Positions 13,719-32,521 of a DNA stretch of 64,000 nucleotides are shown piece by piece. The notes below the pieces were generated by a model that saw nothing but the letters and a program-made list of their open reading frames with translations, searched no databases and was not told the origin of the DNA. Numbering within the stretch: the stretch's first letter is position 1; the number at the start of each line of letters is the position of its first letter. The translations under genes were made by a program, and so were the position numbers. This DNA comes from Paraflavitalea pollutisoli (GTDB lineage Bacteria > Bacteroidota > Bacteroidia > Chitinophagales > Chitinophagaceae): assembly GCF_029360705.1 (NCBI RefSeq), contig NZ_JARKMX010000008.1, positions 248,001 to 312,000 of the forward strand, given 5' to 3'.

Positions 13719-13758
13719 CCTATATTCACACAACAGTACTATACTATTCTATACTATT
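13719..13758 (+). promoter_or_regulatory. Repeated upstream element, copy 1
   Basis: CCTATATTCAC at 13719-13729 is followed by GTACTAT and ATTCTATACTAT ending at 13758, about 60 bp before the first small-protein gene. The 11-mer recurs exactly at 34784-34794, again followed by GTACTAT and ATTCTGTACTAT, upstream of the TraB-like gene. Conserved spacing and order suggest a promoter or operator for a shared regulator; the regulator is unknown. Confidence 0.5.
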
Positions 13759-13819
13759 TGGTTTACCTGTTGTATGGATGGTGACTGTAAACTATTAACC
13801 AAAATTTTGCCTTGTTGTT

Positions 13820-14278
13820 ATGAAAAAGCACACACACCTCTCCCTGCCATTAAAAAAAATCTCCGTTAGTCTGACCTGCCTGGCCTTTGTTGCCAGCCTC
13901 GTGGCAACCACTTCTTCCTTCACAGATCCCGGCGAAACCGGTAATGGTAATTGCTGGAAAGCCGAAAGAGTCGTTTGCAATGGAACCACCACGACGACCA
14001 CCTATAGTGGAGCAGCAGCTCCGTGGGCTGGTCCCGGCGACTATAACGGTAAAACGACTACCGACGCTTCGGGAAACATCACGGTCATCACCCTCGCTGC
14101 TACGCCTGTATGGGATCCTGCCACTTTTTCGTTCCGGTACAAAATCGAAAGCAGAGCAGTTACGGTAGTGACCAGTAGCAGATCAGATTGTTCACAAGGA
14201 GGCAATTCGACTTCCGATTGTCAGCCTACCGATTGTAATGGCCAATCTATCGGAACCCTCAAGGTTTGCGTTAAATAA
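13820..14278 (+). CDS. Small secreted six-cysteine protein A
   Basis: A 152-residue protein of no family I recognise. It has a basic N terminus and hydrophobic signal segment (ISVSLTCLAFVASLVATTSS), then a mature part with six cysteines at 45, 53, 124, 134, 139 and 150. Conserved blocks are GNGNCWKAE..VCNG, a run of six threonines at 56-61, and CQPTDCNG near the end. The same blocks occur in the proteins at 14361 and 15018, so the three form a tandem paralogous family. The middle (65-120) is Thr/Ala/Gly-rich and low in charge. Likely a disulphide-bonded exported protein; the role is unknown. It lies between a strong terminator with the repeated upstream element and the rest of the cluster. 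Confidence 0.75.
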   Translation: MKKHTHLSLPLKKISVSLTCLAFVASLVATTSSFTDPGETGNGNCWKAERVVCNGTTTTTTYSGAAAPWAGPGDYNGKTTTDASGNITVITLAATPVWDPATFSFRYKIESRAVTVVTSSRSDCSQGGNSTSDCQPTDCNGQSIGTLKVCVK

Positions 14279-14360
14279 CTTTCCAGCGTTTAATACAGTA
14301 TTCGGGTTTGTGCTCAGGTAACTGACTTGAGTTGTCATGCCCATGCTTAAAGTTTAAGGT

Positions 14361-14825
14361 ATGCTTTTTCATTGTACTGTAATTGGTATGATCGTGGCGG
14401 CTATTGCCCTGACGGCCAGCCGCCACCTATCACACATTGCCCAGCCGTCAGACAAGTGTTGGAGCCGGACGAAAGTGTCCTGCGGAGGCGAAAGGAAGCG
14501 GAATTTGTTTCGTGAAGAAGTGGCTCCTGCTGTACCAGTTGCCGACCTGGCCAGGATTGATTCGTCGGGCGTGATCACGGAAGCGCAATTGTTGTCCGAT
14601 ACGGTTTTTCTGATCGTTAAAAAATATACGGTGTGGAGCGCCGATCCAACAACTAATAAGCTGGAAAGAAAAGTGAAGGCGATCGATAGCCTTGTTGAAA
14701 GGATAAGATGGGAATGTGAATATGTTGGCCCGGGTAAAGGCAACTGTTCATCCTGTCAGGTGACCGATTGCAATGGCCGGCCCGTAGGTGCGCCTAAAAC
14801 CGGCGTACGCAACAATCGAAAATAG
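14361..14825 (+). CDS. Small secreted six-cysteine protein B (divergent)
   Basis: A 154-residue paralogue of the flanking small proteins. Cysteines at 33, 41, 119, 129, 132 and 137 keep the C-W...C spacing (seven residues between, as in the other two) and the ending CQVTDCNG. The N-terminal hydrophobic stretch (VIGMIVAAIALTAS) is shorter and lacks the lysine-rich start. The Thr tract is absent: CNGTTTTTT is replaced by CGGERKRN, and the centre is charged (KVKAIDSLVERIRWEC). So it is the same scaffold with a different body, perhaps a partner or competitor of the other two. A small palindrome CTTAAA-G-TTTAAG lies directly before the start codon. Confidence 0.65.
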   Translation: MLFHCTVIGMIVAAIALTASRHLSHIAQPSDKCWSRTKVSCGGERKRNLFREEVAPAVPVADLARIDSSGVITEAQLLSDTVFLIVKKYTVWSADPTTNKLERKVKAIDSLVERIRWECEYVGPGKGNCSSCQVTDCNGRPVGAPKTGVRNNRK

Positions 14826-14898
14826 TACTCATGCTGTAAGGCACCGCTTCATCAGCCCATCGCGGGTACTGCCCACTTCCAATCCTACAAAGACTGTC

Positions 14899-14935
14899 TA
14901 CCTGTTGTATTTCTATTCTATAGAAGTATAGCTAT
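14899..14935 (+). promoter_or_regulatory. Promoter-like dyad upstream of protein C
   Basis: TACCTGTTGTAT at 14899-14910 is identical to a 12-mer at 13764-13775 upstream of protein A. It runs into the imperfect palindrome CTATTCTATAGAAGTATAG. Sharing of the 12-mer between the two leaders suggests a common control site; direct proof is lacking. Confidence 0.35.
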
Positions 14936-14967
14936 CTATTGTCCGTCTCCCCAACAATAAGCCATTC

Positions 14968-14995
14968 AAAAAAGCTACGTAGCGTGCTTTTTTTT
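14968..14995 (+). terminator. Terminator/attenuator-like hairpin before protein C
   Basis: AAAAAAGCTACG, a TAG loop and CGTGCTTTTTT form a stem with one bulged T, followed by further T residues. It ends 22 bp before the ATG of protein C, leaving no room for a promoter in between. It could terminate protein B transcripts or attenuate protein C expression. Confidence 0.6.
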
Positions 14996-15017
14996 CTTAA
15001 CCATGCAATTTTAATTT

Positions 15018-15470
15018 ATGACAAACAAAAAAACAAGTTCAACGCGACTAAAGAAAGTCGCCCTGGCTGTTTGCCTGCTTGCTGCCGGCACTGGTACCAT
15101 TACCTCGCTTTCTTCTTTTACAGGTGATGGCGAATCCGGTGGAGGCAATTGCTGGAAAACAGAACAGCAAATGTGCAATGGTACCACCACTACTACCACC
15201 AATGGTGTAACCACACAAACAACGGTGACGGGTGGAAAGATTACGGGCCAGGTTACGGGCGGCGTTGCCAGCAATGCCAACGTTGGACAAACGGCCGGCG
15301 TCGTTATCACCTACAACCCGCAAACCAGTTCATGGACGACTACCAATCCGGGCACTACTACTGTAACGGTAACGAGCTGGAGAGCTGATTGCGCTTCTGG
15401 TGGCAATACAGGTTGCTTACCGACAGATTGCGACAAAAAAGGCATGGATTACAAACCTTGTAATTCATAA
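15018..15470 (+). CDS. Small secreted six-cysteine protein C
   Basis: A 150-residue paralogue closest to protein A. It has a lysine-rich start and hydrophobic signal (VALAVCLLAAGTGTITSL), then SSFTGDGESGGGNCWKTE, CNG and six threonines at 56-61, a Thr/Gly/Val-rich centre and a CLPTDC ending. Mature cysteines are at 45, 53, 125, 133, 138 and 148. The first 61 residues align with protein A without gaps, including both cysteine positions and the threonine tract. The Thr-rich, low-charge centre suits O-glycosylation or surface exposure. No homologous family with known activity comes to mind; toxin, signal or structural protein are all possible. Confidence 0.75.
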   Translation: MTNKKTSSTRLKKVALAVCLLAAGTGTITSLSSFTGDGESGGGNCWKTEQQMCNGTTTTTTNGVTTQTTVTGGKITGQVTGGVASNANVGQTAGVVITYNPQTSSWTTTNPGTTTVTVTSWRADCASGGNTGCLPTDCDKKGMDYKPCNS

Positions 15471-15490
15471 ACCCCAATCACAACATTGTG

Positions 15491-15532
15491 CAAAGAGAAG
15501 AGCTATTGAACCCTTTAATAGCTCTCTCTTTG
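15491..15532 (+). terminator. Terminator-like hairpin after protein C
   Basis: Left arm CAAAGAGAAGAGCTATT and right arm AATAGCTCTCTCTTTG pair over 16 bp with a single bulged A and a 9-nt loop. The T tract is weak. It may partly separate high-level small-protein transcription from the downstream operon. Confidence 0.65.
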
Positions 15533-15572
15533 AATCCATATCGATTGGACGATACCATACCCCATTCATACA

Positions 15573-16766
15573 ATGACCATGAGAAATAGTATCTTATTGT
15601 TCGTGTTGGGAGGCCTGCTGGCTTCCTGTGACCCCAATGTCCAGACCGGACCCATTGTCGATGCGAAGACTGCCACCATTTCGGTAGATAATGGTGCCAT
15701 CACCGATTTTTCCAATATCGACACGTTGATCTCGTCCTTCTCTTATATCCCACTGGAAACAACAGACAGCAGCCTGCTGGGTAATATCAATGCCGTATTC
15801 CCCATTAAAAACAGGATCGTTGTCTTCGATAAATACAATGCAAAAAGCGTCTTCATCTTTTCTGATCAAGGGAAGTTTGTAGCTAAGCTATCCCCCTCCG
15901 GCGAAGGTCCCGGTGAGTTCAACAGCATCGGACGGTGTAAGGCCGATAGCGCCGGTATCGACATCTTCGATAACAGCCTGTCGAAGATGTTGCATTATGA
16001 CCTCGATGGTCAGTTTTCGAAGGAGTATAAGGTAGCTCACTTCTACAAGACCAACTTCCTGAAGTATTCGGAGGGCAAATACCTCTTCTATAATGTCAAC
16101 GAGCCTACTGCCGGCAACGAGGGATACAAATTGATTGCCTGGGACGCAGCACGCAATCAGTTGGAAAGATACTTTCTACCCATCGACCGGTCGCTGTCAA
16201 TGACCGAATCCTATGTCGATGAATCACACTTTCAGGCTTCTCCCGAAGGGCCGGTATTTTTTGAGTTTTTCAATGACACGATTTACAATTTTGCTGCAGA
16301 CTCGCTGAAACTGTCTGCCAGGTATATTCTCGATTTTAAAGATGATCCCTCGCCGGCCGGTTATGTAAACGATAAGAATATACGGGATAAGATGAAAGAC
16401 GTGGAGAAAAATCAATACGCCGTTTTTGGATGCCGGTACCTGGAACTCAAAGATTACCTGTTTTTCAATTATATCTACAAAAAAGGGAACCGGTCTGTTA
16501 TCTGGGACAAGAAACGGAAAGAGACTTTTTCCAATGCCAACTTTATTGTTAGCTCCAAGACCATGTTGCCTTGCGTCAACTGGTACAAAGGCGCTGCCGA
16601 TAACCAGTTGCTGGTGAAGTTCGAGGCTGCGGAGCTGATCGCCTTGTATCGCCAACGTGTGCAGGAAGGCGCCACCAAAGCACTCCTATCGTCGCTGGAG
16701 CACGTGACAGCAGCCTTGAAAGAAGACGACAACCCGGTGTTGCTGGTGATCAACCTGAAAGGTTAA
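15573..16766 (+). CDS. Six-bladed beta-propeller lipoprotein
   Basis: A 397-residue lipoprotein (LFVLGGLLASCD, lipid Cys near residue 19). The pattern FSYIPLETTDSSLLG, then IKNRIVVFDKYNAKSVFIF, LSPSGEGPGEF and repeated blades is that of the Bacteroidota '6-bladed beta-propeller' (NHL-like) proteins. Their function is unknown; they are often found beside small exported peptides. Two ATG codons (15573 and 15579) are equally possible starts. It is the first gene after the small proteins; a 62-bp gap separates it from the thioredoxin-like gene, and it probably starts the long operon. On the periplasmic side it could bind the small proteins or their modified forms. Confidence 0.8.
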   Translation: MTMRNSILLFVLGGLLASCDPNVQTGPIVDAKTATISVDNGAITDFSNIDTLISSFSYIPLETTDSSLLGNINAVFPIKNRIVVFDKYNAKSVFIFSDQGKFVAKLSPSGEGPGEFNSIGRCKADSAGIDIFDNSLSKMLHYDLDGQFSKEYKVAHFYKTNFLKYSEGKYLFYNVNEPTAGNEGYKLIAWDAARNQLERYFLPIDRSLSMTESYVDESHFQASPEGPVFFEFFNDTIYNFAADSLKLSARYILDFKDDPSPAGYVNDKNIRDKMKDVEKNQYAVFGCRYLELKDYLFFNYIYKKGNRSVIWDKKRKETFSNANFIVSSKTMLPCVNWYKGAADNQLLVKFEAAELIALYRQRVQEGATKALLSSLEHVTAALKEDDNPVLLVINLKG

Positions 16767-16828
16767 GTGCCGCTACGGCCGCGCGGCCTGTTTGAATCCT
16801 TCGTTATCATTACTCAATTGACTGTGTT

Positions 16829-17470
16829 ATGCTTCCATCAAAGAAATCTCTGTTTTATCTATTGCTGATCGTTGCTGCTATTGGTGTAACTGTCGTAAAC
16901 GGTGCTATCTACTTCAATAATAAAGGTAGCCACCCGGTGGGGCCGGATCAGCAACAGGCCGCTGCTGTGGTGACTGATCTGGAACGTAAGTACAACAGGC
17001 TGGCCATCCAGCATGCTGATCCGGTGGTGGAGGATGCAGTTACCTTATCTGACACTGCCACCGCCTATTCCCTGCCGGCTTTTTTTGACCGGTATATTCA
17101 GTCGCCCAGGATCATATTCCGTTATTCCGATATTGGCTGCACCCCCTGCGTCGATTCCTCCCTGTCGGTATTGCGGGCGATCGGTGATCAGATCGGACAT
17201 GAGCAGATCCTCATTGTGCCCAGCTATGAGAACCGGCGGAACCTATTGATCTGGAAAAGGGTCAATAAGTTCGATTTCACGATCTTAAACGCTCCTTCCG
17301 GTAAGGTATTGCCGGCTGTGGATGCCTACAATATCCCTTATTTCTTTGTACTGACTCCCAAGAGTATGACGGCGCATCAATTGTTCTTCCCCATGAAGGA
17401 GAATACGTCCCGAACTGCTGATTATCTCCAGGCAGTCGTTGGCAGGTACATCAAGCAACCCAACCAGTAA
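16829..17470 (+). CDS. Membrane-anchored thioredoxin-like protein, CTPC motif
   Basis: A 213-residue protein with one N-terminal membrane anchor (FYLLLIVAAIGVTVVNGAIYF) and a periplasmic domain with a CxxC redox motif, C104-T-P-C107, in FRYSDIGCTPCVDSSL. The flanking strand-turn-helix layout and the later AYNIPYFFVLTP (a cis-proline loop position) fit a TlpA/thioredoxin-like fold, though overall similarity is weak. It ends 2 bp before the next start, so the two are translationally linked. Because the neighbouring small proteins have six cysteines each, a job in forming or correcting their disulphides is plausible. Confidence 0.72.
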   Translation: MLPSKKSLFYLLLIVAAIGVTVVNGAIYFNNKGSHPVGPDQQQAAAVVTDLERKYNRLAIQHADPVVEDAVTLSDTATAYSLPAFFDRYIQSPRIIFRYSDIGCTPCVDSSLSVLRAIGDQIGHEQILIVPSYENRRNLLIWKRVNKFDFTILNAPSGKVLPAVDAYNIPYFFVLTPKSMTAHQLFFPMKENTSRTADYLQAVVGRYIKQPNQ

Positions 17471-17472
17471 GT

Positions 17473-19332: not shown

Positions 19333-19430
19333 CTTAAACGGCCAATGAACGACAAAAGAAACAACTCATTAATACTCCACCTTACCCTATCCGTGAGTAG
19401 TGGTTGGAGTATCCTAAAATAGATTGTGAC

Positions 19431-20564
19431 ATGTTTTTCCATTCCATCGTTACTACCCGCTCGAACCGGCGACAGCCTCTGCTTAGGTATTGTGTCGCCG
19501 TTTTGGCAGGGGGCTGCCTGGTGTCTTGTGGCGACTCCTTATCCTCACAGGGCGATACAGAGCTTCCCTTTCTAAAAAGTCAGCAGTCCGATACGTCGCG
19601 CACGATCGTCCATACCGTATTGGCCGGCGAAGCGCCTTTTAAATACCTGATCCGGTCTTCGGGGAAGATCCGGTCACTGCACGAAAGAATGATTGCATCG
19701 GAGGTGGGTGGTACGCTGCTGGCTTGTCATGCGGCTACGGGCAAGCGCGTAGCTGTGCAGGAGGTGCTTGTAAAGGTCGATCCCACTGTGATTCAATTCC
19801 GGCTCAACAAAGCCGAACTCAACCTGCTCAACAGCGAAAAGGAGTACGAAAGCCAGATATTGAGTTATGAGCGCCTGCTGAAAGATAAGCCGGCAGCGGA
19901 AGCGGAAAAGATCAGGCGGCAGTTGAAGATCCGCAGCGGCTTGTTGCCGGCAGAGCAAGAGATCAGCGAAGCGCAGTATGAGTTATCAAGGACGGTGATA
20001 CGAGCACCTTTTGCCGGGGTCCTGTCCGATGTAACGGTGGAAGAAGGGCAGCGGGTCCGTCCGGATCAGCCGATGTTCCGGATCTATGATCCGCACCAGC
20101 TGGTGTTGGAGATCAAGGTGCTGGAGGCGGATGTTTTCTTGTTGACGATAGGTGCGCCGGCAGAGGTGGCACCGCTGGCAGACTCGTCCAAAAAGTACCG
20201 GGCCCGGGTGGCAGCAATCAATCCCTATATCGATGAGAACGGCATGGCCCTGGTAAGATTGGCGCTGACAGATGCTGGGGTGATCTATCCGGGCATGAAC
20301 TGTACCGCCACGATCAAACTGTCTTCCAGCCGGTCGTTGACAGTACCGCGGGAAGCCATTGTGATGCACGATGACCGGCCGGTGGTTTTCAGCGTAGAGA
20401 AAGGATTGGCCCATTGGCACTATGTCACTACCGGGCGTTCCAATGGCAAAGAGGTGGAGATACTGGAAGGGTTGACACCGGGTATGAAGGTGATAACGAC
20501 CAATAACCTGCAACTGGCGCACCTGGCTCCTGTACAAGAGGGGCAAAGGGACATGGATAAATGA
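19431..20564 (+). CDS. RND efflux periplasmic adaptor (membrane fusion protein), lipoprotein
   Basis: A 377-residue adaptor of tripartite RND pumps. It has a lipobox (AGGCLVSCG), a lipoyl/barrel-sandwich half (ASEVGGTLLACHAATGKRV), a short alpha hairpin (LNKAELNLLNSEKEYES to EQEISEAQYELS), the second lipoyl half (TVIRAPFAGVLSDVTVEEGQ) and beta-barrel and membrane-proximal domains (YPGMNCTATIKL, LTVPREAIV). The start at ATG 19431 gives a proper lipoprotein signal; the longer frame begins with TTG. The stop lies 23 bp before the permease gene. The hairpin is short, which fits RND adaptors that dock to TolC through a brief coiled coil. Confidence 0.88.
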   Translation: MFFHSIVTTRSNRRQPLLRYCVAVLAGGCLVSCGDSLSSQGDTELPFLKSQQSDTSRTIVHTVLAGEAPFKYLIRSSGKIRSLHERMIASEVGGTLLACHAATGKRVAVQEVLVKVDPTVIQFRLNKAELNLLNSEKEYESQILSYERLLKDKPAAEAEKIRRQLKIRSGLLPAEQEISEAQYELSRTVIRAPFAGVLSDVTVEEGQRVRPDQPMFRIYDPHQLVLEIKVLEADVFLLTIGAPAEVAPLADSSKKYRARVAAINPYIDENGMALVRLALTDAGVIYPGMNCTATIKLSSSRSLTVPREAIVMHDDRPVVFSVEKGLAHWHYVTTGRSNGKEVEILEGLTPGMKVITTNNLQLAHLAPVQEGQRDMDK

Positions 20565-20587
20565 TCTCCTAAGTACAAACCCCACAG

Positions 20588-23500
20588 ATGGTCAGATACC
20601 TCATCCGGCGGCCCATTGCAGTATTGATGCTCTTTGCAGCACTACTGATCACCGGGTTGTCGCTTATTCATAAGATACCTGTTTCCCTGTTGCCCAACAT
20701 CGACGTTCCGCAGATGGTGGTGCAGGTGAACTATCCCAATACGGCGGCGGAGGTCATGGAGCAAAGTATCCTGGCGCCCATCCGCGAGGCGCTGGGTAAT
20801 GCCGACAACCTGCGGTCTATAGAAAGCAAGGCAGCCAACCATATTGGTACCATCGAAATGACTTTCGAATATGGTACGGAAATGGACCTGGCCTACATTG
20901 CTGTCAATGAAAAGCTGGACCGCCTGTCTTCCTTCCTGCCGCGTGACATGCCAAGGCCCGAAGTGATGCGGGTCAATACGTCGGATATTCCCATCGTACG
21001 GGTGCAGGTGATTCCCAAAGCTGAAAAGCAGTTCCTGGAAGTGTCGCGGCTTACGGAAAAGATTTTGAAACGCCGCATCGAACAACTGGAAGGCGTTTCG
21101 CTGGTGGATATTAACGGGCTACGGCAACAGGTGATTACCGTTGTTCCGGACAAAGAAGCACTATCGGCCCTGAACCTGCACGAAGGTGACCTCTCCTATG
21201 CCATTCAGGCGGCCAATACGGAGTTAGGCGGACTGACCGTAAAAGATGGGCAATACAAATATTTTGTCAGGCTCGACAATGAACTTCGGAGTGAGTCGGA
21301 TATTGCCGCCCTGCCCCTGGTATTGCGGGAAGGTACCGCAGTAGCCCTGGGCCGGATCGCGCAGGTAAAGACACAGGAGGAAGCCCCCACGGGTTACCAT
21401 TTGTACAACGGAAAAGAAGGACTGGTCATTACCATTCAGAAGCAATCCTCCAGCCGCATGAACGAGCTGGTGCCGAAGGTAAAAGAGGCCGTTGAGCAGT
21501 TCCGGAGAGATTTTCCGCAGATAGAGTTTGGCGTGAGCCAGGATCAGTCTTTTCTGCTGGACGCAGGCATCAGCAACCTATGGCAGGATCTGCTGTACGG
21601 AGGCCTCCTCACCGTCGTGCTGTTGCTGCTTTTTCTGGGCAACTGGGCACCTGCCCTGCTGATGAGTATCAGCATACCCCTGTCGCTGATCATCACTTTT
21701 ATTTTCTTTTACGTATTCAACATCTCTTTCAATATCATTTCGCTATCGGGGCTGGCCCTGGGCGTGGGCATGCTGATCGACAACTCCATTGTCGTGATCG
21801 ACAACATCACCCGGAGAAGAAACCAGGGGTTGAGCATGCAGGAAAGCAGCGTGCAGGGAACCAATGAAGTGATAGCCCCTGTGATCAGCCAGGTGCTGAC
21901 AACCGTTGCTGTATACGCGCCCCTCCTATTGCTGAGCGGCATGGCGGGTTCGTTGGTCTATGACCAGGCGATTGGCCTCACCATTTGCCTGTGTGTATCG
22001 TTGCTCGTCGCATTTATCCTGGCTCCCTTGCTGTATACGCTGTTGGTAAAGCGGGTGAAGGCAGGGAATGAGGATACCCGGTTTTATACGTGGGTCGCCA
22101 AAGGGTATCACCGGATGGTACATCATATACTGCGGCATAAGTTGCCTTATCTGCTGGTTACCGTTTTCGTCATGTGCGCCGGTATCGGGCTGTCGACCCT
22201 GATCCCCGTCAGTGCCTTGCCCAGGTTGGAGAAAAAGGAGAGCCTCGTCCTCATCGATTGGAACGCACCCGTCGATGCACCCGAAAACCTGCGGCGGATA
22301 AAGGAATTACTGGCTGATGTTGGTAAAGACATGCAGGAGTCGGAAGCCGATGTTGGCATCAGGCAGTTTATGCTGCAGCATACCGACAACAGCATACAGC
22401 GGGGCGAACTGTACTACAGCTGTAGGGAGGAAGCCTTGAAAGCCACGACGGACCAACGGGTGAAAGCGTGGATGAGCCGTCACTACCCTGCGGCCAGCCT
22501 GGAAATTGTCGACGCTCCCAATGCATTTACCCAGTTGTTTGCGTCTACGGCAGACCATTACCTGGAAGCCCGTTTTAAAATGATCAGGTCTGCCGATCCA
22601 TCGGAGGCGGGCGAAAAGCTGAAAAAGGCATTGCGTCGATTCGATCCTAAAGACTATGTCCTGGGTATGGGTTTTATCCGGGAGCCCAGTGTGACTGTGG
22701 TACTCAACTACGAAAGCATGAAGGTATATGGTGTGAACAGGGGGCAGATCGAGGATGCCTTGCGGCAACAATTTGGTGTGTACACCATCTCTCAGTTGAA
22801 AAGATATGGCGATGTGCAGGCCATTCGACTACAGGCAGACAGGCCGTCCCTGCAGGATAAATTATCGGTGGGCGTAAGAAGCAATAGCGGCACAGCTTAT
22901 CCGCTGAGCCTGTTTGTGGCAATGATCACGGAGCACAAACCCAAATACATTACGGCCGATCGTTCCGGGGTATTCCAGTCTGTCGTGTTCGATCAAAACA
23001 GCGACAGGGCCGGGTTCGACAAGGAGATCCGGCAACTGGCGTTGGAGGCCGGTTATTCGGTGACCTTGCGCGGTCAGTATTTTGAGAACCAACAGCAGGT
23101 AACGCAACTGTGGTGGATCTTCCTGGTGGTGTTGTTACTGCTGTATGTCATCCTCGCAGTACAATATGAGAGCCTCGTGCAACCATTGATCGTCATGCTG
23201 ACCATACCGCTGGGCGTGGCCGGTGGTTTATTCTTGCTGTGGGTAACCGGTGGCACCCTCGATGTGATGGCCGCTATTGGGTTTATTGTCATCCTGGGAT
23301 TGATCGTCGATGACCCGATCCTGAAAATTGAAACATTGAACAGGTTGGAGAAACGATACCGCGCTGCGGGGCTCCCTATCGATCAACAGCTGATGGAGCA
23401 AATGATCCACGAAGCCGGTGATATTTGTCTGAAACCGCTGCTGATGGTGTCATTGACCACCAGTATTGCGCTTGTGCCCGTACTGTTTGTATCCGGCATC

Positions 23501-23638: not shown

Positions 23639-25117
23639 ATGCATTTCATCTCTGCGAGAACATTGTTATTGTGGCTGCTGTTGCTGTCCGGGACGCGGCT
23701 GCTGGCGCAGCGGCCCGCTGTCTATTCGTTGAACGATATCATTTCCCGGGCGCAAATGCAATCGTACAGCTACAAATTGGCGGCCACGCAAAAGGAGATC
23801 AGCTTTTACCGGTTTCGCACTTTCAGCAGCGAATTTAAACCGCAGGTCTCGCTCTATGGCAATGCACCTGTATACAACAAAGAGTATTATGCCGTGCGTC
23901 AGCCCGATGGGGCGATCAGTTACCAGTTGATCGAACAAAGCAACAACAACATCGGACTGGGCATCAGCCAGCGGTTGCCTTTCTCCGGGGGTACCATTTC
24001 GCTGAACACCGACTTGTCGAGGTTTGATAATTTCCAGACCAAAACAAAACAGTACAGTGGCACACCGGTGTATTTGCAGCTGAATCAACCACTGTTTGCC
24101 GTCAACGAATTGAAGTGGAACCGGCTGATCGAAACGCTGAAATTCGATGAGTCGCAGAAACAATTTGCCTTCGACCGGGAGCAAATCGCCCAGGTGGCCG
24201 TAGGACTTTTCTTCGGCATCCTGGAGGCGCAAAACAATATCGACATCGCCACCACCAATCTGCTGGTAGCCCAGGAGAATTACGAGATCGAAAAGAAGCG
24301 CGTCAACCTGGGCACTACTTCCGAAGACCGGTTGCTGCAACTGGAGTTACAGATGCTGAGAAGTAAGCAGGATCTGGAGAGGGCCAAATACGATCACACG
24401 ATCGCCCAGCTGAACCTGAACATGTACATCGGGATCAAGGAAGAAAAGATCCTGTTGATAGAGCCCGTACAATCAAAGAAGTTGTCCATCGATCTGGCAG
24501 AAGCGACCAGTCATGCGAAAAAGAACAGGCCCGAATTCATTGCCTTTCAACGAAGGACTCGCGAGGCCCAACGGGATGTGGCCGTAGCCAGGGCTGCCAC
24601 CCAGCAGGTCAACCTCACAGCGAGTTATGGTCTTTCTCATATTGGCACGCAGGTGGGCGACGTATACCAAAATCCCAACAACCAGCAACGGCTCAGCATC
24701 GGCTTTAATATCCCCCTGGTAGACTGGGGCCGGCGGAAAGCCCGGTACCATACTGCCAGGGCATTGGAAAAACTGACCGCTACCAGCAATGAATTTGAAG
24801 AGGCGAATATCTTTCAGGCCATCGAGATCCTCATCAACAATATGACCCTGCTGGAGTCAAACATCGATCTGGCCAGGAAGACCGATTCTGTGGCACACCG
24901 GCGGTACATCCTGGCCAATGACCTGTACCAGATCGGGAAGTTGTCTGTCACCGATCTCAGTTTTGCCCAGTCGGAAAAAGACAACAGCAGAAGGAATTAC
25001 ATCAATGCGCTACGGGCCTTTTGGGATTGTTACTACCAGCTTCGCAAGCAGACCTTGTATGATTTTGAAAAACACGAATCGTTGTTGAGAACCAGTACCC
25101 CGGACAATACGAATTGA
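23639..25117 (+). CDS. TolC family outer-membrane channel
   Basis: A 492-residue protein with a signal peptide (TLLLWLLLLSGTRLLAQ) and the duplicated alpha-barrel layout of TolC/OEP proteins: beta stretches such as ISLNTDLSRFDNFQTKTKQY, long helices (LEAQNNIDIATTNLLVAQEN; EDRLLQLELQMLRSKQDLE) and a second copy around ARAATQQVNLTASYGLS and QRLSIGFNIPLVDWG. It should complete the tripartite exporter with the adaptor and permease directly upstream. The start lies 3 bp after the permease stop. Confidence 0.9.
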   Translation: MHFISARTLLLWLLLLSGTRLLAQRPAVYSLNDIISRAQMQSYSYKLAATQKEISFYRFRTFSSEFKPQVSLYGNAPVYNKEYYAVRQPDGAISYQLIEQSNNNIGLGISQRLPFSGGTISLNTDLSRFDNFQTKTKQYSGTPVYLQLNQPLFAVNELKWNRLIETLKFDESQKQFAFDREQIAQVAVGLFFGILEAQNNIDIATTNLLVAQENYEIEKKRVNLGTTSEDRLLQLELQMLRSKQDLERAKYDHTIAQLNLNMYIGIKEEKILLIEPVQSKKLSIDLAEATSHAKKNRPEFIAFQRRTREAQRDVAVARAATQQVNLTASYGLSHIGTQVGDVYQNPNNQQRLSIGFNIPLVDWGRRKARYHTARALEKLTATSNEFEEANIFQAIEILINNMTLLESNIDLARKTDSVAHRRYILANDLYQIGKLSVTDLSFAQSEKDNSRRNYINALRAFWDCYYQLRKQTLYDFEKHESLLRTSTPDNTN

Positions 25118-25146: not shown

Positions 25147-27243
25147 ATGAAAGTGCGAACACTTATCCTCCCTAAACGGCTTTGTTGGCTTCCCCTGCTG
25201 GTGCTATTGGCGGGCTGTGCCCACCATGCCACGGCACCCAACAGGGATTACCACGATATCCTGGACCGGGTCAGTAAAGAATACGGCATCCATGACATCT
25301 CGTACCTGATCACCCAAAACGGCCGGGTGGCTGCGGAGCAATTCTCTTCTTCCCTACTTGATTTTTCGCCGGCAACCAACAGCGCCATTGCTGCCATTTT
25401 TTGCAATCCCCTAAAGCTGGATGTATTGGTCAAAGACTCCATCCTGCCCGGCGATAGTGCCTTGAAGAAGTATTTCCACTCCATCGATAACAAAGGGATA
25501 CAAGTGAAAGACCTGGTCGTTGTGCCTGCCGACAATTATGAACCGCAACGGTTCTGCGCCGATTCCGTTTATTGGATGACGGACCGGTTGGTACAGGCAG
25601 TAGCGAAAAAGGATCAGTATGCCAATGCGTTTATGGGCGCCCTGGACCAGGCAACTGCCCACCTGCAGGGCCACCAATCGCTGCTGGAATCGCTGGCGCA
25701 GGTATCCCGGCTATTTGATGAAAAATACATCGAGTATTTCTATAAGGCGGATAGCCTGGTGGCCAACCTCTTCCCTACCTGGTATACGGAGAACAAAACT
25801 TTTTTTTACGGTTGGAAGATCCTGAAGATCCAACACAGTACGATCCTCTGGAATTGCTTTGTCGATCAGGAGCGGACGCTGTTGCTCATGAAATTCATGG
25901 ACAAGAAGGTTTTTGCGGCCATTCAATATACAGCGAAGCCTGTACCTGACCCCTACAGTTACCACCGGGATGATCTGCTGCAATCACCCATCGCGTTGGC
26001 CCTGATAAAACCATTGCTGGTTCCGCAGGCACAGCAACTCGATATAGACTATACGGCCGCCTGGAGCACGATTGCTGAAAACAGGAAAGTAATCGACAAC
26101 AGCGCCTACCGGCTGTTGTACAACAAAGAGTTGATCGCCCGCGCACGATACGATGAAGCGGTCGGTGATAGTGCCAACGCCAGAAAACTCTATGCCGGAT
26201 ATGAAATGCTTACCGGGGGTAGCTCGCTGGCTGCCTATCTCAATGAAGTGCCGATTGCAGAAACCGGGTACATCTCGGATCGCCTCAATACCACTGCCGC
26301 TTTTTCCATTGACAAGGATGGCAATTACCAGGTATTTGCGGGCGGGCAGGTGTTACCTGTCACTGATCAATACAACGCCCCTTACAATGCAGACCATGTT
26401 CAGCTGTATTTCAGCCAGGACGATCATGTCAAAGCCGGCCAAGATCCATTGCAGGTCTTCCATTTCAACTACCGGTACAACAAGATTGCCGGTATGCAGG
26501 ACGATCGGCATGCCGATAGCTGGATAAAGGCATCCAATATACGGTTTGCCTACGGCGATCCGGACGATACCTCGTATGTGCTGGAGATAGCCATTCCCTG
26601 GTATGAAATGCCGGGGAAGAAAAAGTTCAACCAGCGACCGGTAAGGTTAAACGTCTTGCTGGGCGACTGTGACTATGAAGAAAACAAACGGGAAAGCATT
26701 TTGTCCTGGGCCACCAAGCCGGGTGAGCGTTGGGACGATCCCGCCACCTATGGGGTGTTGTCCTTTGCGGCGCATCCCGCAGCCGTCAGGAAGGGCTATG
26801 CCAGCAGGCTGGTATCGCATCCCCCGGTAATCGACGGGCAGATCGACGACGTTTGGGACCAGGTTACTTATTCCGGTATCGAATGGCCCTACCAGGACCG
26901 GGTCAGTGCGTACGATCATGCCGGTAAATTCAAGTCGTTGTATGATGAATCGTACGTGTATTTCCTTTTTTATGTAGGCGACAATTGCAAAAACAAGACA
27001 GGCGTCATCACCAAAGACAAATGCTGGATTGAAGAGGCCGCCACCAACCAGTTGATCTGGAAGATGCCAGCGGATACGACCCGCTACGCACCTTCTTACA
27101 GCATGGAAGCGAAAATCTACCTGAAAGCAGGAAAATACAAATTACGGTACTATTCCGATAAGGGCCACTCCACGGAAGGATGGTACGCTGCTCCTCCACA
27201 GCACGATGTGTATGGCGGAATCATTTATCCACTTAAAAAATAA
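25147..27243 (+). CDS. Lipoprotein with C-terminal CBM9/DOMON-like domains, unknown function
   Basis: A 698-residue lipoprotein (LVLLAGCAHH). The first 380 residues are not recognised; they look alpha-helical with no catalytic motif I can name. From about residue 380 a DOMON/CBM9-type domain follows (DGNYQVFAGGQVLPV, DHVQLYFSQDD, YVLEIAIPWYEMPG, RPVRLNVLLGDCDYE), then a second one beginning with the typical PPVIDGQIDDVWDQV. Such domains bind sugars in cellulases and related enzymes. ATG 25147 is chosen; the longer frame begins at a TTG overlapping the tolC stop. It sits 29 bp after tolC and 9 bp before the transglutaminase-like gene, so it belongs to the export operon and may bind the exported glycan or glycoprotein. 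Confidence 0.68.
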   Translation: MKVRTLILPKRLCWLPLLVLLAGCAHHATAPNRDYHDILDRVSKEYGIHDISYLITQNGRVAAEQFSSSLLDFSPATNSAIAAIFCNPLKLDVLVKDSILPGDSALKKYFHSIDNKGIQVKDLVVVPADNYEPQRFCADSVYWMTDRLVQAVAKKDQYANAFMGALDQATAHLQGHQSLLESLAQVSRLFDEKYIEYFYKADSLVANLFPTWYTENKTFFYGWKILKIQHSTILWNCFVDQERTLLLMKFMDKKVFAAIQYTAKPVPDPYSYHRDDLLQSPIALALIKPLLVPQAQQLDIDYTAAWSTIAENRKVIDNSAYRLLYNKELIARARYDEAVGDSANARKLYAGYEMLTGGSSLAAYLNEVPIAETGYISDRLNTTAAFSIDKDGNYQVFAGGQVLPVTDQYNAPYNADHVQLYFSQDDHVKAGQDPLQVFHFNYRYNKIAGMQDDRHADSWIKASNIRFAYGDPDDTSYVLEIAIPWYEMPGKKKFNQRPVRLNVLLGDCDYEENKRESILSWATKPGERWDDPATYGVLSFAAHPAAVRKGYASRLVSHPPVIDGQIDDVWDQVTYSGIEWPYQDRVSAYDHAGKFKSLYDESYVYFLFYVGDNCKNKTGVITKDKCWIEEAATNQLIWKMPADTTRYAPSYSMEAKIYLKAGKYKLRYYSDKGHSTEGWYAAPPQHDVYGGIIYPLKK

Positions 27244-27252
27244 CTACTGGTT

Positions 27253-29322
27253 ATGCTACACAACAAAACATTACTTGTGGTGATGGCTGGCCTGCTCGCA
27301 GGTGCATTGATGTTGGCGGTTGCTGCCCGTGGTCCGCGTCATGAACAGGACCTGGAAAAAGCGTTGGCATTTGCCGGTAAGAACCGGGGCGAACTGGAAA
27401 AAGTGTTGGACCATTACAAAGCGCCCAAAGACAGCCTGAAGCTGGAAGCAGCCAGGTTCCTCATCCGCCATATGCCGTACCATGTTGGGTATTATGGTAC
27501 GGAAGTAAACAATTACGCCAGCATATTTGCCGCGATAGACACCCTGTCGTATTTGAAAGAGAGCTTGTCCTTTGCAGACAAGAAGGCTATTGGCGAGGCT
27601 GTCGTGAGCCGGTTTGGCTGGCCACAGGTAGATAACCTGCAGCCGCAATACGACAGCAGGATCTTATCGGCTTCGTACCTGATCAGTAATATTGAATTTG
27701 CTGTCAGGGCCTGGAAAGGCGCTCCCTGGGCCGATAAGGTACCTTTTGCTGTTTTTTGTGAGTATATCCTCCCCTACCGGATCAAGGCAGAACGGGCTGA
27801 GTATTGGCGTCCGGAATTTTACCAGCGCTATACAGGTTGGGCAAAGAACAATTATGAACCACGCAATGCCCGGTCGGTGTTCGATGACCTGAACTGGAAG
27901 CTGAACACCGAAACGAGTTTCAATGTGTTTTTTGACAAGTACTACCCTTTCGACCAAAGCATTGGCGACGTAGAAAAAGGGAGGATCGGTAGTTGTGAGA
28001 TCACGGCTTATTTTGCCACCAGTGCCATGCGCGCGGCGGGGTTGCCGGTAGGATATGATTATATCATGCATTGGGGCAGTACCAATAGCCGGCACTATAT
28101 GCCACACCTGGTGGGTAAGTTTGACTCCCTGCGGTTGATCACCAATGAGAATGTACAGGAGAACACCTGGCACCTGGTCGATTTTTCTTCCGAATTCAAC
28201 GAGCATCGCCACCAGTTTACCCCCGAAGAAATGCCACCGGGCTTATACGTTCAAAATGTGCGTACCATTCCCAAAGTATACCGCTACCAGTATTCGCAAA
28301 ACGTTGAGCTGGTCGAGATGAACAAAAATACCCCAGCGTCATTTGTCTGTCCGGAGTTTACCAAAACCAATTTCAAAGACGTAACCGATGAATATGTTAC
28401 CACTACCACCGTCACCATCCCGGTGACCGAAGCGATGGCTCAATATAAACTCGCTTACCTGACGGTTTTCGATATCAGCGGTTGGCAGGCAGTAGCGGTG
28501 GCCCCCATAACAGCGGGAAAAGCGGTATTTGAGAAGCTGGGAAGACAGACGATGTATTTACCTACGGTGTACCACGAAGGAAAGCATTGGCCGGCTGGTG
28601 CCCCCTTCTACATCGATGCTGCCAGCCAGGTGCACCAGGTGAAGGCCAGCAACAAGACCACCGATATGCGGGTGCTGCGGAAATATCCATTGTATACCTA
28701 CACGGCCTATCATTCCGAGATTTTGAAAGGAGGGCATTTTGAAGGCGCCAATGATGCGGTGTTCACGCATCCGACAGTATTGCACCGGATTGCCAACTAC
28801 CCGTTTTTTGTGAATGAGGTGAGCAGTGCCAGTAAGGATCGGTTCCGGTACCTGCGGTATGTGGCTGCTCCGGAGGCCAATTTCGAACCGGATAATATTG
28901 CCGAAGTTCAGTTCATCGGGGTGGATGGCAAGCCGTTGACAGGGCAGGTCATCGGCATGGACGGCATTGCCGGGCACGAGCCTGCGAAGGCGTTTGATGG
29001 CGACCTGAATTCTTATTACCAGAATGCACGGAACAGAGACGGGTGGATTGGTATTGACCTGGGTCCTGGTAAACGGGCAGCTGTGGGGTCTATCAGGTTT
29101 TGTCCGCGCAACGATACCAATGGTATTCTGCCAGACAGTCAGTATGAATTGTTTTACTGGAATGGTACAGACTGGATTTCATTGGGGGTAGCTGCCTCGG
29201 GTCAATACAGGCTTGATTACAAAGGAGTACCTGCTGGCGCGTTGTTTTGGCTCAAATGCCTGACGGGTGGACAGGAAGAGCGCATTTTTACCTACGAAAA
29301 TGGCCTGCAAACCTGGTGGTAA
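27253..29322 (+). CDS. Transglutaminase-like protein with C-terminal discoidin-like domain
   Basis: A 689-residue exported or membrane-anchored protein (hydrophobic start LLVVMAGLLAGALMLAVAA). The core has the transglutaminase-like pattern: GSCEITAYFATSAMRAAGLP with candidate nucleophile Cys248, then WGSTNSRHYMPHL (His281 or His285) and NTWHLVDFSS (Asp310). The C-terminal 130 residues resemble an F5/8 type C fold (KAFDGDLNSYYQNA, WIGIDLGPGKRAAVGSIRF, YELFYWNGTDWISLG), usually a sugar- or surface-binding module. Relatives act as cysteine peptidases or cross-linking enzymes; which reaction applies is unknown. It lies inside the RND operon and its end abuts the second permease. Confidence 0.75.
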   Translation: MLHNKTLLVVMAGLLAGALMLAVAARGPRHEQDLEKALAFAGKNRGELEKVLDHYKAPKDSLKLEAARFLIRHMPYHVGYYGTEVNNYASIFAAIDTLSYLKESLSFADKKAIGEAVVSRFGWPQVDNLQPQYDSRILSASYLISNIEFAVRAWKGAPWADKVPFAVFCEYILPYRIKAERAEYWRPEFYQRYTGWAKNNYEPRNARSVFDDLNWKLNTETSFNVFFDKYYPFDQSIGDVEKGRIGSCEITAYFATSAMRAAGLPVGYDYIMHWGSTNSRHYMPHLVGKFDSLRLITNENVQENTWHLVDFSSEFNEHRHQFTPEEMPPGLYVQNVRTIPKVYRYQYSQNVELVEMNKNTPASFVCPEFTKTNFKDVTDEYVTTTTVTIPVTEAMAQYKLAYLTVFDISGWQAVAVAPITAGKAVFEKLGRQTMYLPTVYHEGKHWPAGAPFYIDAASQVHQVKASNKTTDMRVLRKYPLYTYTAYHSEILKGGHFEGANDAVFTHPTVLHRIANYPFFVNEVSSASKDRFRYLRYVAAPEANFEPDNIAEVQFIGVDGKPLTGQVIGMDGIAGHEPAKAFDGDLNSYYQNARNRDGWIGIDLGPGKRAAVGSIRFCPRNDTNGILPDSQYELFYWNGTDWISLGVAASGQYRLDYKGVPAGALFWLKCLTGGQEERIFTYENGLQTWW

Positions 29323-29356
29323 CCTTCACCACGTTGAGCGGGATAAACTACTGACT

Positions 29357-32300
29357 ATGTCGCCGAAGAGATGGATGATGGTATATGTTGCGCTGGTGAT
29401 GGTGGCTGGTTTCTTTTTGTCGGATCTGTATGTGCAGGCCGACTCGAAGGAACGGTCAACGGCGTTAACGGTTTCTTTTTCTTTTCCCAACAGTACACCC
29501 GAGGTAGTGGAAGGTGTCACTGCAATCATCGAGAACGCCTGTTCACAACTCCGCGAATTGAAGCACATCAGTTCCACCTCCAGCTATCATGGCGGTTTTG
29601 TTCAATTGTATTTCGATCCATCGGCGAAGATGGCTTTTAAACGACTGGAATTGGCCACGCTGATACGACGTATTTACCGGCAACTGCCGGCAGGGGTCAG
29701 TTTTCCCTACATCGGTGGCGGAGAAACCGATCGCACAGCCATGCCAATACTGGTGTATGCGATTCATGCGCAGCTACCACCGCAGCTGATCCGGGAAGAA
29801 AGTGAAACAATTTTTCGCAAGGCTTTTGCTGACCTGAAGGGTGTTAAGGACGTGACGGTTTCCGGTGTCGATGAGGTGCAAATGGTCATACAGTTTGACC
29901 GGGAAAAATGCCTTGCCTGGCATGTCAGCCCTAACGACATACTGCCTTCGCTCAACAGTTTTTTCGGAGCATCCTATCCGGGTTACCTCACCCGGGACAA
30001 CCATGAACAGTATTTTCTACGGGTGCCGGCACCCAAAGCGGATATCGGTGCGATAGAACAAATCACAATCCCTTCCGGCAGGAATAGCCGGTTGTTGCTG
30101 AAGGATATTGCCGGGGTGTACCTGCAGCGGGCGGAACCCCAGTCCTATTTTCGCATCAACGGTAAAAATGTGGTGCGGCTGTCTGTATACCCGGCGAAAG
30201 ACGTGAACAAGGTGGCGTTGGCCGGTAACGCCCAGGTGGTGATGGAGAAAGCCACCCAACTACTGCCGAAGGGATTTGCGGTAAGCCTTGAATACGATGA
30301 TACGTCCTTTCTTAGCGCCGCTACGGACAAAAGCTATGGGCGACTGTTGGGGTCGCTGGTGTTGCTGGTGATGTGGCTGGCGATCGCTTACCGCGACTGG
30401 CGGATGGTCGTGCACTTATTGGCCGGGCTACTCCTGACGTTTTCGCTGACGGTGATTATCGCCCGTTTGCTGGGCGCTACGATCCATTTGTATACAATGG
30501 GGGGCATTGCGGTGGCCGTCGCTATTGTTATGGACAATGGGATCCTCATGCTCGACTACTATCGAACAAGGCAGGACCGCAGGATGTTCCTGGCCATGTG
30601 TGGCGCCAGTTTGATCTCCATTTTTGCGCTGTGGCTGGTGGGTGGCTACCTAAGCAATGACGAGGCCACTGGCGGCGACTTTCCGGTGATCGTCATTATT
30701 TCCCTGGTGGCTTCGTTGATCACGGCCGTTTGGTGTACGCCGGCGCTTTGCACCTTGTTGCGCATAACAGCAGCTCCCCGTTTGCGTATTGCAGTAACAC
30801 ATCGCCACCGCTTGCTGCCATTCGTGGAGCGATGTTACCAGCGCATGCTGCCCTGGCTGGTGCGGTACCGGAAACTTTTTATCGTGGGGCTCGTGCTGTT
30901 GTTTGGCACTCCGGTCTTCCTGTTGCCCGACCAGTGGAGGGGAACGGCATGGTATCATAAGGCCTACAATCATACGCTCGGTAATGCCTATTACCTGGAA
31001 CACGTCCGTCCGGCCATCGACAAATGCCTGGGTGGTACACTACGTTTGTTTGTGGAGCAGGTATACAACAAAAGCAGTGTGCGGGATCTGCGTAAAACAA
31101 AACTGTATCTGCAGGCGGAATTGCCCATCGGCAGTACGCCGGCTCAAATGAACCGGCTATTGAAAGATTTCGAAGAGTACCTGTCAACGGTATCCGGGGT
31201 AGATCAATTCATCACGAACGTTTATTCCGGGCAATTTGGGTTTATCGAGATCTCTTTTACAGCGCATGCCGGCCATAGCAGTTTGCCCTATCAGTTGAAG
31301 GCAAAGCTGATTGGCCGGTCTCTGAACTGGGGTGGTGTAAAATGGAGTATCTATGGCATTGGCCAGGGATTCAGCAATGGTGGAGAGGCGGAAACCCCCA
31401 ATTTTAAGGTGGTGATGAAGGGATACAACTACGACGAATTGGAAAAGCAGGCGATACGCCTGGCCGATAAGCTGAAAGAGCAGCGGCGGGTACAGGCCAT
31501 CAACATCAACGAACGGATCAATCACGGCGAAAAGCCCAGCAACGAGTATCGCTTGTACCTGGATGCAGGCAGGCTGGCGTTGGTTGGGGTGGATAAAGCC
31601 GGCGTACTGAATGCGATCAGGAGTGCATCAGCACCCACACAGACTGCCGGAGGGGTGTACATCAACCGTACCTATTACCCGGTCCTTATCAAAGAGCAAT
31701 CGTCGGGAACCTTTTCCAATTACGACCTGTTGTTTGCCAACCAGGCGGTAGATTCCAATCACCTACTCCGTTTGAACAGCGTGGGGTCATTGGTCTTTAC
31801 GCCGGCTGTCAACAGTATCTATAAGGAAGGGAGGCAGTATGTACGGGTCGTCAGTTTCGAATACCTGGGCTTATCGGAAGCAGGGCGGTATTTTTTAGCG
31901 GCAAAGCTGGAAGCCATGAAAGCGGGAATGCCGGTAGGTTATACAGCCGTGTACAAAGAATATGATGGCGGCTGGGAATGGGGGGGCAACAACAAGATCG
32001 TATGGGTAGCCTTGCTGTTGGTCGCCGTTTTTTTCATCACCAGCATTGTTTTTGAAAGCCTGCGAAAGCCACTGTACGTGATCGCTATTATACCGGTTTC
32101 TTTTATCGGGTTGTTCCTTACTTACTATTGGGGCGACTTTTACCTGGACCAGGGAGGCTACGCGGCTTTTATCTTGTTGGGCAGCCTGGTTGCCGGATCT
32201 TCCATTTTTATCATCAATGACCTGGCTATACTTCGACAAACCTCGGACGAAGCATACAGCCGGTTATTGATCAGGACCCTGGTGGCCCGTTCGGAAACCA

Positions 32301-32521
32301 TGTTCGTGACGAGGCTGGCGGTATGTGTCAGCATGGTACCATTTTTATTGGAAGGGTCCAGCAGCGTATTCTGGTTTTCTTTCGCCGTGGGGGCCATCGG
32401 TGGCTTGTTGTTTTCGCTGTTTTCAATACTTGTCGTACTGCCGGTGCTGTTATGGCGAAAAGGTGAAGCTTTGGCTGCACCTGATGCCATCCACGCCGTG
32501 GCGCCAAAACAAGAAGCCTGA
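29357..32521 (+). CDS. RND family permease (second, divergent)
   Basis: A 1054-residue RND-type transporter that differs greatly from the first permease. It has TM1 at residues 4-21 (RWMMVYVALVMVAGFFLSDL), two porter regions, TM4 AIVMDNGILMLDYY, and TM10 AGSSIFIINDLAILR. Polar relay residues are partly kept but the usual TM10 lysine is missing. It has no adaptor or TolC of its own. The start at ATG 29357 lies 34 bp after the transglutaminase-like stop; the longer frame would overlap that gene. It may pair with the first permease in a mixed trimer, as MdtB and MdtC do, or serve a separate step. Confidence 0.85.
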   Translation: MSPKRWMMVYVALVMVAGFFLSDLYVQADSKERSTALTVSFSFPNSTPEVVEGVTAIIENACSQLRELKHISSTSSYHGGFVQLYFDPSAKMAFKRLELATLIRRIYRQLPAGVSFPYIGGGETDRTAMPILVYAIHAQLPPQLIREESETIFRKAFADLKGVKDVTVSGVDEVQMVIQFDREKCLAWHVSPNDILPSLNSFFGASYPGYLTRDNHEQYFLRVPAPKADIGAIEQITIPSGRNSRLLLKDIAGVYLQRAEPQSYFRINGKNVVRLSVYPAKDVNKVALAGNAQVVMEKATQLLPKGFAVSLEYDDTSFLSAATDKSYGRLLGSLVLLVMWLAIAYRDWRMVVHLLAGLLLTFSLTVIIARLLGATIHLYTMGGIAVAVAIVMDNGILMLDYYRTRQDRRMFLAMCGASLISIFALWLVGGYLSNDEATGGDFPVIVIISLVASLITAVWCTPALCTLLRITAAPRLRIAVTHRHRLLPFVERCYQRMLPWLVRYRKLFIVGLVLLFGTPVFLLPDQWRGTAWYHKAYNHTLGNAYYLEHVRPAIDKCLGGTLRLFVEQVYNKSSVRDLRKTKLYLQAELPIGSTPAQMNRLLKDFEEYLSTVSGVDQFITNVYSGQFGFIEISFTAHAGHSSLPYQLKAKLIGRSLNWGGVKWSIYGIGQGFSNGGEAETPNFKVVMKGYNYDELEKQAIRLADKLKEQRRVQAININERINHGEKPSNEYRLYLDAGRLALVGVDKAGVLNAIRSASAPTQTAGGVYINRTYYPVLIKEQSSGTFSNYDLLFANQAVDSNHLLRLNSVGSLVFTPAVNSIYKEGRQYVRVVSFEYLGLSEAGRYFLAAKLEAMKAGMPVGYTAVYKEYDGGWEWGGNNKIVWVALLLVAVFFITSIVFESLRKPLYVIAIIPVSFIGLFLTYYWGDFYLDQGGYAAFILLGSLVAGSSIFIINDLAILRQTSDEAYSRLLIRTLVARSETMFVTRLAVCVSMVPFLLEGSSSVFWFSFAVGAIGGLLFSLFSILVVLPVLLWRKGEALAAPDAIHAVAPKQEA

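Follow-up and report, generated by a model that had tools for sequence, protein, structure and literature searches.

The window examined here, a stretch of 64,000 nucleotides from the 8.76-Mb genome of Paraflavitalea pollutisoli (contig NZ_JARKMX010000008.1, positions 248,001–312,000), carries a run of twelve genes on the + strand (positions 13820–32521 of the window) that opens with three small cysteine-rich secreted proteins and closes with the second of two RND permeases (Table 1). An earlier note on this DNA had described the run as a candidate system by which small six-cysteine proteins are matured and exported. The genes it described are present, in the order and on the strand that it gave. 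The gaps from the propeller gene onward, calculated with the likeliest ATG starts (19431 for the adaptor, 25147 for the CBM9-like lipoprotein and 29357 for RND2), are 62, 2, 98, 23, 3, 29, 9 and 34 bp, in good agreement with those reported before (mostly 2–35 bp, and about 98 bp before the adaptor), and six3 lies 102 bp upstream of the propeller gene on the same strand. An ACR_tran permease, an MFP adaptor and a TolC channel are all encoded in the window, as in an RND tripartite pump. The labels given to the propeller, RND, TolC, adaptor and CBM9-like products hold, whereas those of the Wzy-like protein (Wzy_C at 19.2 bits against a curated cut-off of 31.7, and 22.8 bits, again below it, in another scan), of the transglutaminase-like protein (17.2 against 23.0 bits) and of the CTPC protein, which has no family match in the Pfam and NCBIfam scans, are weaker. 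The flanks are ordinary, with glutaminase A upstream and a GH97 gene downstream on the opposite strand. Bacteroidota promoters are unlike the sigma-70 type; a sigma-70 scan of the window gave 8 sites against 19.6 in shuffled sequence, and the host promoters may be of another type.

Table 1. Genes of the run, with positions in the window and the basis of each assignment.
Feature	Position	Strand	Basis
six1, small six-Cys Sec-signal protein, 152 residues	13820..14278	+	Open reading frame, 6 Cys after hydrophobic segment; no Pfam/NCBIfam family
six2, small six-Cys protein, 154 residues, divergent paralogue	14361..14825	+	Open reading frame; homologue in genome G162 adjoins a different gene
six3, small six-Cys Sec-signal protein, 150 residues, immediately 5′ of propeller	15018..15470	+	Open reading frame, Cys count
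6-bladed beta-propeller lipoprotein (DUF5128)	15573..16766	+	PF17170 5.4e-43, PF16288 3.6e-10; lipobox-like ASC in sequence
CTPC thioredoxin-like protein, N-terminal membrane anchor	16829..17470	+	CxxC; profile matches to thioredoxin-like PDB chains
Wzy/O-antigen-ligase-like membrane protein, C-terminal TPR (wzyTPR), 619 residues	17473..19332	+	Wzy_C 0.0011, below cut-off
RND periplasmic adaptor (MFP)	19431..20564	+	TIGR01730 1e-46, over cut-off; ATG 19431 chosen as start
RND1 permease	20588..23635	+	PF00873 1.1e-171
TolC-like outer-membrane channel	23639..25117	+	PF02321 2.2e-45
CBM9-like lipoprotein	25147..27243	+	CBM9_1 PF06452 6.8e-20
Transglutaminase-like protein (tgl), F5/8C-like C-terminus	27253..29322	+	PF01841 0.0064, below cut-off
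RND2 permease, marker of the system	29357..32521	+	PF00873 1.4e-71

Each of the three small proteins has six cysteines after a hydrophobic N-terminus, called as a signal peptide by a crude hydrophobicity rule and not by SignalP. In arrangement, six2 differs from six1 and six3: it lacks their final cysteine and has an additional one. A Thr-rich stretch is present in six1 and six3. Comparable loci have in common that they encode secreted proteins which are small and rich in cysteine, as a class and not as one sequence family. We assembled 41 such proteins, partly paralogous, of which 27 were picked by rule upstream of a propeller and the other 14 were chosen by hand in the same loci (7 of these, in L037, L039, L044 and L108, have no recognised propeller directly behind them); one low-complexity open reading frame of L105 was removed before counting. 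Cysteines make up 7.4% of the residues after the leader, compared to 0.8% in proteins longer than 200 residues, a percentage that is inflated because the selection demanded at least two cysteines. Parity is affected less, and the cysteine count is even in 38 of the 41 proteins and odd in three (25 of 27 rule-picked and 13 of 14 hand-added proteins are even). Pfam scans of 24 small proteins and NCBIfam scans of nine gave nothing above the curated cut-off, the best family match being a sub-threshold one to DUF6520 for a peptide of a wzyTPR locus (L041).

The gene association around RND2 extends well beyond the window. At E ≤ 1e-100, RND2 occurs in five of the 294 sampled genomes of the family, and all five encode small Cys-rich signal-peptide proteins, a propeller, a thioredoxin-like or DUF1573 protein, an MFP adaptor and RND1 in the same stretch. 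Apart from the window, these are G162 (L079: an 83-residue six-cysteine protein, propeller, DUF1573, adaptor, RND1 at 63% and TolC at 63% identity), G084 (L080: three four-cysteine proteins of 71–77 residues, propeller, DUF1573, adaptor, RND1 at 56% and TolC at 54%), G268 (L025: a 140-residue six-cysteine protein, propeller, thioredoxin-like and LanC-like proteins, three glycosyltransferases, adaptor and a full-length RND1 at 66%) and Niastella populi (L018 with L095). The window RND1 matches one protein each in G268 and G084 at these identities, and the next matches in the three genomes searched are at 25%. Across 22 RND2 loci from 21 genomes of the class, RND1 is found in 20 (both loci without it, L106 and L111, are near a contig end), the adaptor in 19, a propeller in 17, a thioredoxin-like or DUF1573 protein in 11 (leaving out a short false thioredoxin match in L080), wzyTPR in five, a signal peptidase in three and tgl in two. 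In 13 of the 22, a small cysteine protein lies no more than 600 bp 5′ of the propeller.

Two sets of controls were compared with these loci. A propeller is absent from all 20 random regions and present in one of 20 other RND loci, as against 17 of the 22 RND2 loci. By origin, 17 of the 22 RND2 loci and the 10 NVEALA regions described below belong to other families of the class, while the random regions were drawn from six genomes of this family and the RND controls (20 kb each, scored without small proteins) from three, G000, G268 and G084. The hidden Markov models used were made by hand and trained partly on the loci that they count, and they were applied in the same way to the controls. The association of these genes is beyond chance, and the co-occurrence of small cysteine proteins, propeller, thiol protein and RND genes that the earlier note had proposed to examine came out in its favour. 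Because of the random-region and RND controls, chance adjacency and ordinary drug efflux are given low weight. The exceptional RND control, L134 of G268, has a second propeller/thioredoxin-like/propeller set (L134:14048–17070) a few kb from an unrelated RND operon.

RND2 loci vary in layout and in content. In L079 and L080, the small proteins, propeller, DUF1573, adaptor, RND1 and TolC genes stand in a row with RND2 divergent and with no barrel gene among them; in L079, a barrel-like gene lies some 5 kb past RND2. The Asp of transmembrane segment 4, one of the RND relay residues, is present in all 18 RND1 and in 19 of 20 RND2 proteins compared, the RND2 of G084 (L080:8362–11511) being the one that lacks it. 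A MacB_PCD/FtsX permease gene sits directly after RND1 and before tgl in Niastella populi (L095:11178–13580). The LanC-like gene and the three glycosyltransferase genes of G268 (L025:12085–15985) lie between the thioredoxin-like gene and the adaptor and suggest modified products. In L107 (G424), four small cysteine proteins with propellers, three DUF1573 genes, a signal peptidase and a subtilase surround a single RND1/adaptor/RND2 set, and a short double-glycine-type peptide gene (a sub-threshold match) is also present. A signal peptidase I gene recurs in peptide–propeller, tgl or RND2 loci (L023, L084, L107, L112, L115, L142, L143, L144, L146 and L148), which points to dedicated cleavage. A winged-helix-like (HTH) protein of 73–95 residues, a possible regulator, recurs in L020, L025, L038, L041, L045, L080 and L105; a search for it in the window gave no match.

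The window set is one variant of a broader locus class, which is also reached from wzyTPR. Relatives of wzyTPR occur in 22 and of tgl in 24 of the 294 genomes of the family, and both are found together in 13, where 1.8 would be expected (hypergeometric 6e-11). In the 19 close wzyTPR loci, window included, there is a propeller in 17, a thioredoxin-like or MauE protein in 15 and tgl in 12; the corresponding numbers for the 20 random regions of the family are 0, 1 and 0. Other loci of the class have DUF1573 or MauE in place of the thioredoxin-like protein and an outer-membrane barrel in place of RND, so that the set described in the earlier note recurs as a class and not in its exact composition. 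The catalytic-core Cys and His of tgl, read by eye, are present in seven of eight aligned proteins. Among 36 loci scanned, the CBM9-like lipoprotein has just one other relative, in L035 of Niastella vici, where its gene is flanked by tgl and wzyTPR.

NVEALA peptides (PF14055) and the window proteins are placed alike in loci of one kind, although the window proteins are not NVEALA by profile: they have neither a PF14055 match nor an NVEALA motif, and PF14055 was found in none of six genomes with RND2 examined, including that of the window. A GE[S]-type motif after the leader was considered as a link between the two and rejected as too weak (14 of 43 have it, where shuffles average 8.2 and 27 of 2000 come as high). 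Among 385 sampled genomes of the class, five have PF14055, one of them below the cut-off, and three of the five (G365, G398 and G625) carry RND2 on the same contig, 13–23 kb from the nearest NVEALA gene. Ten NVEALA regions from these five genomes (L149 stems from the below-cut-off match) contain a propeller in nine, tgl in five, signal peptidase in five, wzyTPR in three, a thioredoxin-like protein in three, an adaptor and an RND1-like permease in two, and DUF1573 in one. All 18 NVEALA peptides picked by motif have a same-strand propeller downstream, at −3 to 752 bp, with another NVEALA gene in between in two cases and a 194-residue gene in one, and the cysteine count is even in 16 of them. In a tree of 16 propellers, the four that adjoin the CxGxGS[IL][DE]C subtype of NVEALA, from three genomes and two families, form one clade with support of 99/99; most other branches of the tree are unsure. 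Thus, for this subtype, peptide and propeller type travel together; a fifth such peptide (L147) is separated from the propeller by another NVEALA gene. NVEALA peptides resemble the window proteins in their Sec-type leader, the cysteines in the mature part and the propeller downstream, and their loci share tgl, thioredoxin-like, signal peptidase I, wzyTPR, DUF1573 and adaptor/RND genes with the RND2 and wzyTPR loci. They are smaller, at 69–109 residues compared to 150–154. A further parallel is found in G214 (L062:5294–7147), where a MauE-like gene is followed by three tandem small proteins of 117 residues, of which the one scanned is DUF6520-like. As in the window, small exported proteins are encoded near a thiol-related membrane protein; no propeller and no RND gene were found in the L062 region.

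The CxxC of the CTPC protein is invariant in 12 of 12 aligned relatives, and its profile matches thioredoxin-like PDB chains at E-values of 0.0009–0.008. The Wzy-like protein retains part of what characterises O-antigen ligases. Its match to WaaL (PDB id 7tpg) has an E-value of 0.22, or 0.003 with a fuller profile (A3). In the 7tpg alignment, R227 and R290 correspond to WaaL R191 and R265, and among the relatives R227 is invariant (16 of 16) and R290 is conserved at 90% or more. In the parts of the WaaL study available to us, Arg191 and Arg265 bind the diphosphate and His313 activates the acceptor (PMC10920833). The position of His313 is apparently taken by F347, a Phe in 16 of 16 relatives, in a register that comes from a segment scoring below zero alone; we place it there because the Asn that follows the ligase His aligns to N348, in accordance with the N-x9-G-x2-G pattern. 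One true Wzy_C protein, encoded at another place of the same genome (L075), has His-Asn at this motif, and in the other two Wzy_C proteins of the genome (L076 and L077) the pattern was not matched. The same study, in the parts available, gives Asp or Glu at the His313 position in all but one of the other families of the clan (PMC10920833), and the part of the His could be taken by an acidic residue two positions further along (E349 of the window protein). The AlphaFold2 model of the Wzy-like protein is good (pLDDT 87.6, pTM 0.87), and a Foldseek search with it returned 875 matches with E-values above 0.001 and up to 10. Of the 50 matches listed, most are TPR proteins and none is WaaL, which leaves the profiles as the basis for a ligase-like fold. 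Since the ligase His seems to be missing, the role in glycan machinery that the earlier note had assigned to this protein is doubtful.

The recurrent gene association, the mostly even cysteine counts and the clade-level pairing of one peptide subtype with its propellers lead us to propose, with an even chance of being right, that the locus matures and exports small disulphide-bonded proteins by a system that would use Sec, periplasmic folding and processing, and release through paired RND permeases and TolC. The small proteins, judging from their signal peptides, would cross the inner membrane via Sec. In the periplasm, the CxxC protein may oxidise or proof-read their paired cysteines, a part that MauE or DUF1573 neighbours may play in other loci, and the transglutaminase-like cysteine-hydrolase may trim or alter the chain, as signal peptidase or subtilase might do elsewhere. 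The propeller lipoprotein would bind the small protein encoded beside it and be its specific partner, in the role of a chaperone, receptor or immunity protein. The adaptor, RND1 and RND2 would then jointly pick the folded product from the periplasm, and transport by this pump would end with exit through TolC. The Wzy-like TPR protein may be an accessory inner-membrane enzyme that uses a lipid diphosphate, or a scaffold, and glycan transfer is not part of the proposal.

A route of this kind has a precedent in the enterotoxin STII of Escherichia coli, which passes through Sec and Dsb and then leaves the periplasm by MacAB-TolC, a release likened to the ‘vacuum cleaner’ model of RND pumps (PMC5985334, as far as the source was available); export of STII through a tripartite TolC pump also appears in the available part of PMC8277102. 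The proposed route shares with it Sec, periplasmic disulphides and a tripartite TolC pump, and the cargo candidates combine a Sec-type signal, by the crude rule, with an even cysteine count, as a STII-like cargo would. MacAB-TolC has an ABC permease, whereas the window has two RND permeases, and dedicated propeller, thiol and peptidase genes such as those of the present loci are not mentioned for STII in the portions of PMC5985334 and PMC8277102 available to us. Heteromeric RND pumps exist, MdtBC being a heterotrimer (PMC8277102, in the same portion). Like MdtBC-type systems, the window combines a pair of distinct RND permeases with a single adaptor and TolC, here as a putative heteromer; unlike in MdtBC, RND2 is divergent or apart from RND1 in several loci and is associated with peptide genes. 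The Wzy-like protein weakly resembles WaaL/PglL and Wzy in its Wzy_C region and keeps the two Arg positions that bind the diphosphate. It differs from WaaL/PglL by the apparent Phe for His, by the C-terminal TPR and by a neighbourhood of peptide, propeller and RND genes instead of sugar genes. Our search of the open-access literature, with subscription papers and preprints outside it, gave no paper on this gene combination among the matches listed and none on NVEALA, DUF6520, DUF4934 or DUF5128; BF3164 came up in a phylogeny paper.

Several observations weigh against the proposed export system. RND2 is uncommon, occurring at E ≤ 1e-80 in 17 of the 395 genomes sampled from the class, no propeller was found in the fetched stretch of five of the 22 RND2 loci (L104, L108, L109, L112 and L114), and rescanning nine RND2 loci for overlooked small proteins gave none that was convincing. 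The rule for small proteins is loose and also fires in seven of the 20 random regions, in none of them upstream of a propeller. The AlphaFold2 model of the CTPC protein is poor (pLDDT 44.9), and its thioredoxin fold is not secured. An OMP_b-brl-type outer-membrane barrel is encoded in 16 of the 19 close wzyTPR loci and RND in only two, those of Niastella populi and of the window, which means that the class can do without RND. No propeller was found in five wzyTPR loci of more distant relatives (L026–L030), which have one tgl gene among them. Pairs of wzyTPR and tgl, about 1–4 kb apart from centre to centre, also occur in L082 and L085–L091, where BLAST against the reference set gave no propeller, and the pair therefore has a wider use. 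Finally, one of the two six-cysteine homologues outside the window, that of six2 in G162, sits away from the RND locus. It is 53% identical to six2 and ends 5 bp before a gene of 528 residues, with no propeller detected by BLAST in the 20-kb stretch. This 528-residue product is 55% identical to that of window gene 34869–36455 (the G162 stretch is L024:7873–9929), and six2 may thus be the partner of another gene and not of the RND system. The two homologues are adjacent in G162, while in the window the RND system separates six2 from 34869–36455. The product of the latter is secreted and has no Pfam match; its GTIHS and GAAH stretches we take to resemble TraB/GumN. Hence the expected coupling of the six-cysteine family to the downstream genes stands for the class of small cysteine proteins but not for the exact family, which was found in three of the 294 genomes of the family, including that of the window.

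Four other explanations were weighed. The small proteins and propellers might be envelope sensors, chaperones or metal/redox buffers, and the RND pair might expel lipids, drugs or metals and be merely co-regulated with them. Small molecules are the usual substrates of RND and MFP families, a CzcB-type model gives a sub-threshold match to the adaptor, and many peptide–propeller loci have no RND genes; the absence of a propeller from 19 of 20 other RND loci of three genomes, set against its presence in 17 of 22 RND2 loci, makes this account unlikely, and the signal peptidase, subtilase and thioredoxin genes point instead to the processing of exported chains. Less probable still is a glycopeptide system in which the Wzy-like protein moves a lipid-linked glycan onto the small proteins before export. 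The Wzy_C-like region, the CBM9-like lipoprotein, the Thr-rich stretches of six1 and six3 and the three glycosyltransferases of G268 would fit it, as would the common placement of PglL genes beside those of their targets (PMC3643930, in the part available), but it has to contend with the Phe at the ligase His position in all 16 relatives, with the presence of wzyTPR in five of 22 RND2 loci only and with glycosyltransferases noticed in a single locus, the others not having been searched family by family.

It is also rather improbable that the small proteins leave by another route, such as an outer-membrane barrel, lipoprotein export or vesicles, with the RND pair serving the propeller or the cell surface. 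The barrels of the close wzyTPR loci and the barrel-like gene beyond RND2 in L079 speak for such a route, whereas the uninterrupted rows from small proteins to TolC in L079 and L080 contain no barrel gene. Least of all do we favour two unrelated operons that happen to adjoin, one for the small proteins and propeller and one for the RND pump: the gaps of 102 and 98 bp could hold promoters, but genes of both kinds are found together in several families of the class, in varying orders and on varying strands. The interpretation of the earlier note is partly supported, and the maturation and export system is the reading that we retain.

In its widest form, which we put forward tentatively and hold to be somewhat improbable as a whole, the proposal is that of an undescribed secretion pathway in members of this class of Bacteroidota, in which a paired-RND/TolC pump would serve specifically several families of small proteins with disulphide bonds, including NVEALA, each peptide with its own propeller and several such pairs sharing one pump, in the service of peptide signalling or bacterial rivalry. 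If this is correct, NVEALA and many unnamed small cysteine proteins would gain a place and a route, as would the unexplained DUF5128, TolB_like and DUF4221 propellers found beside small cysteine proteins. Small folded proteins would join the cargo of RND pumps, and the pairing of peptide and propeller predicts a specific, measurable binding between the two.

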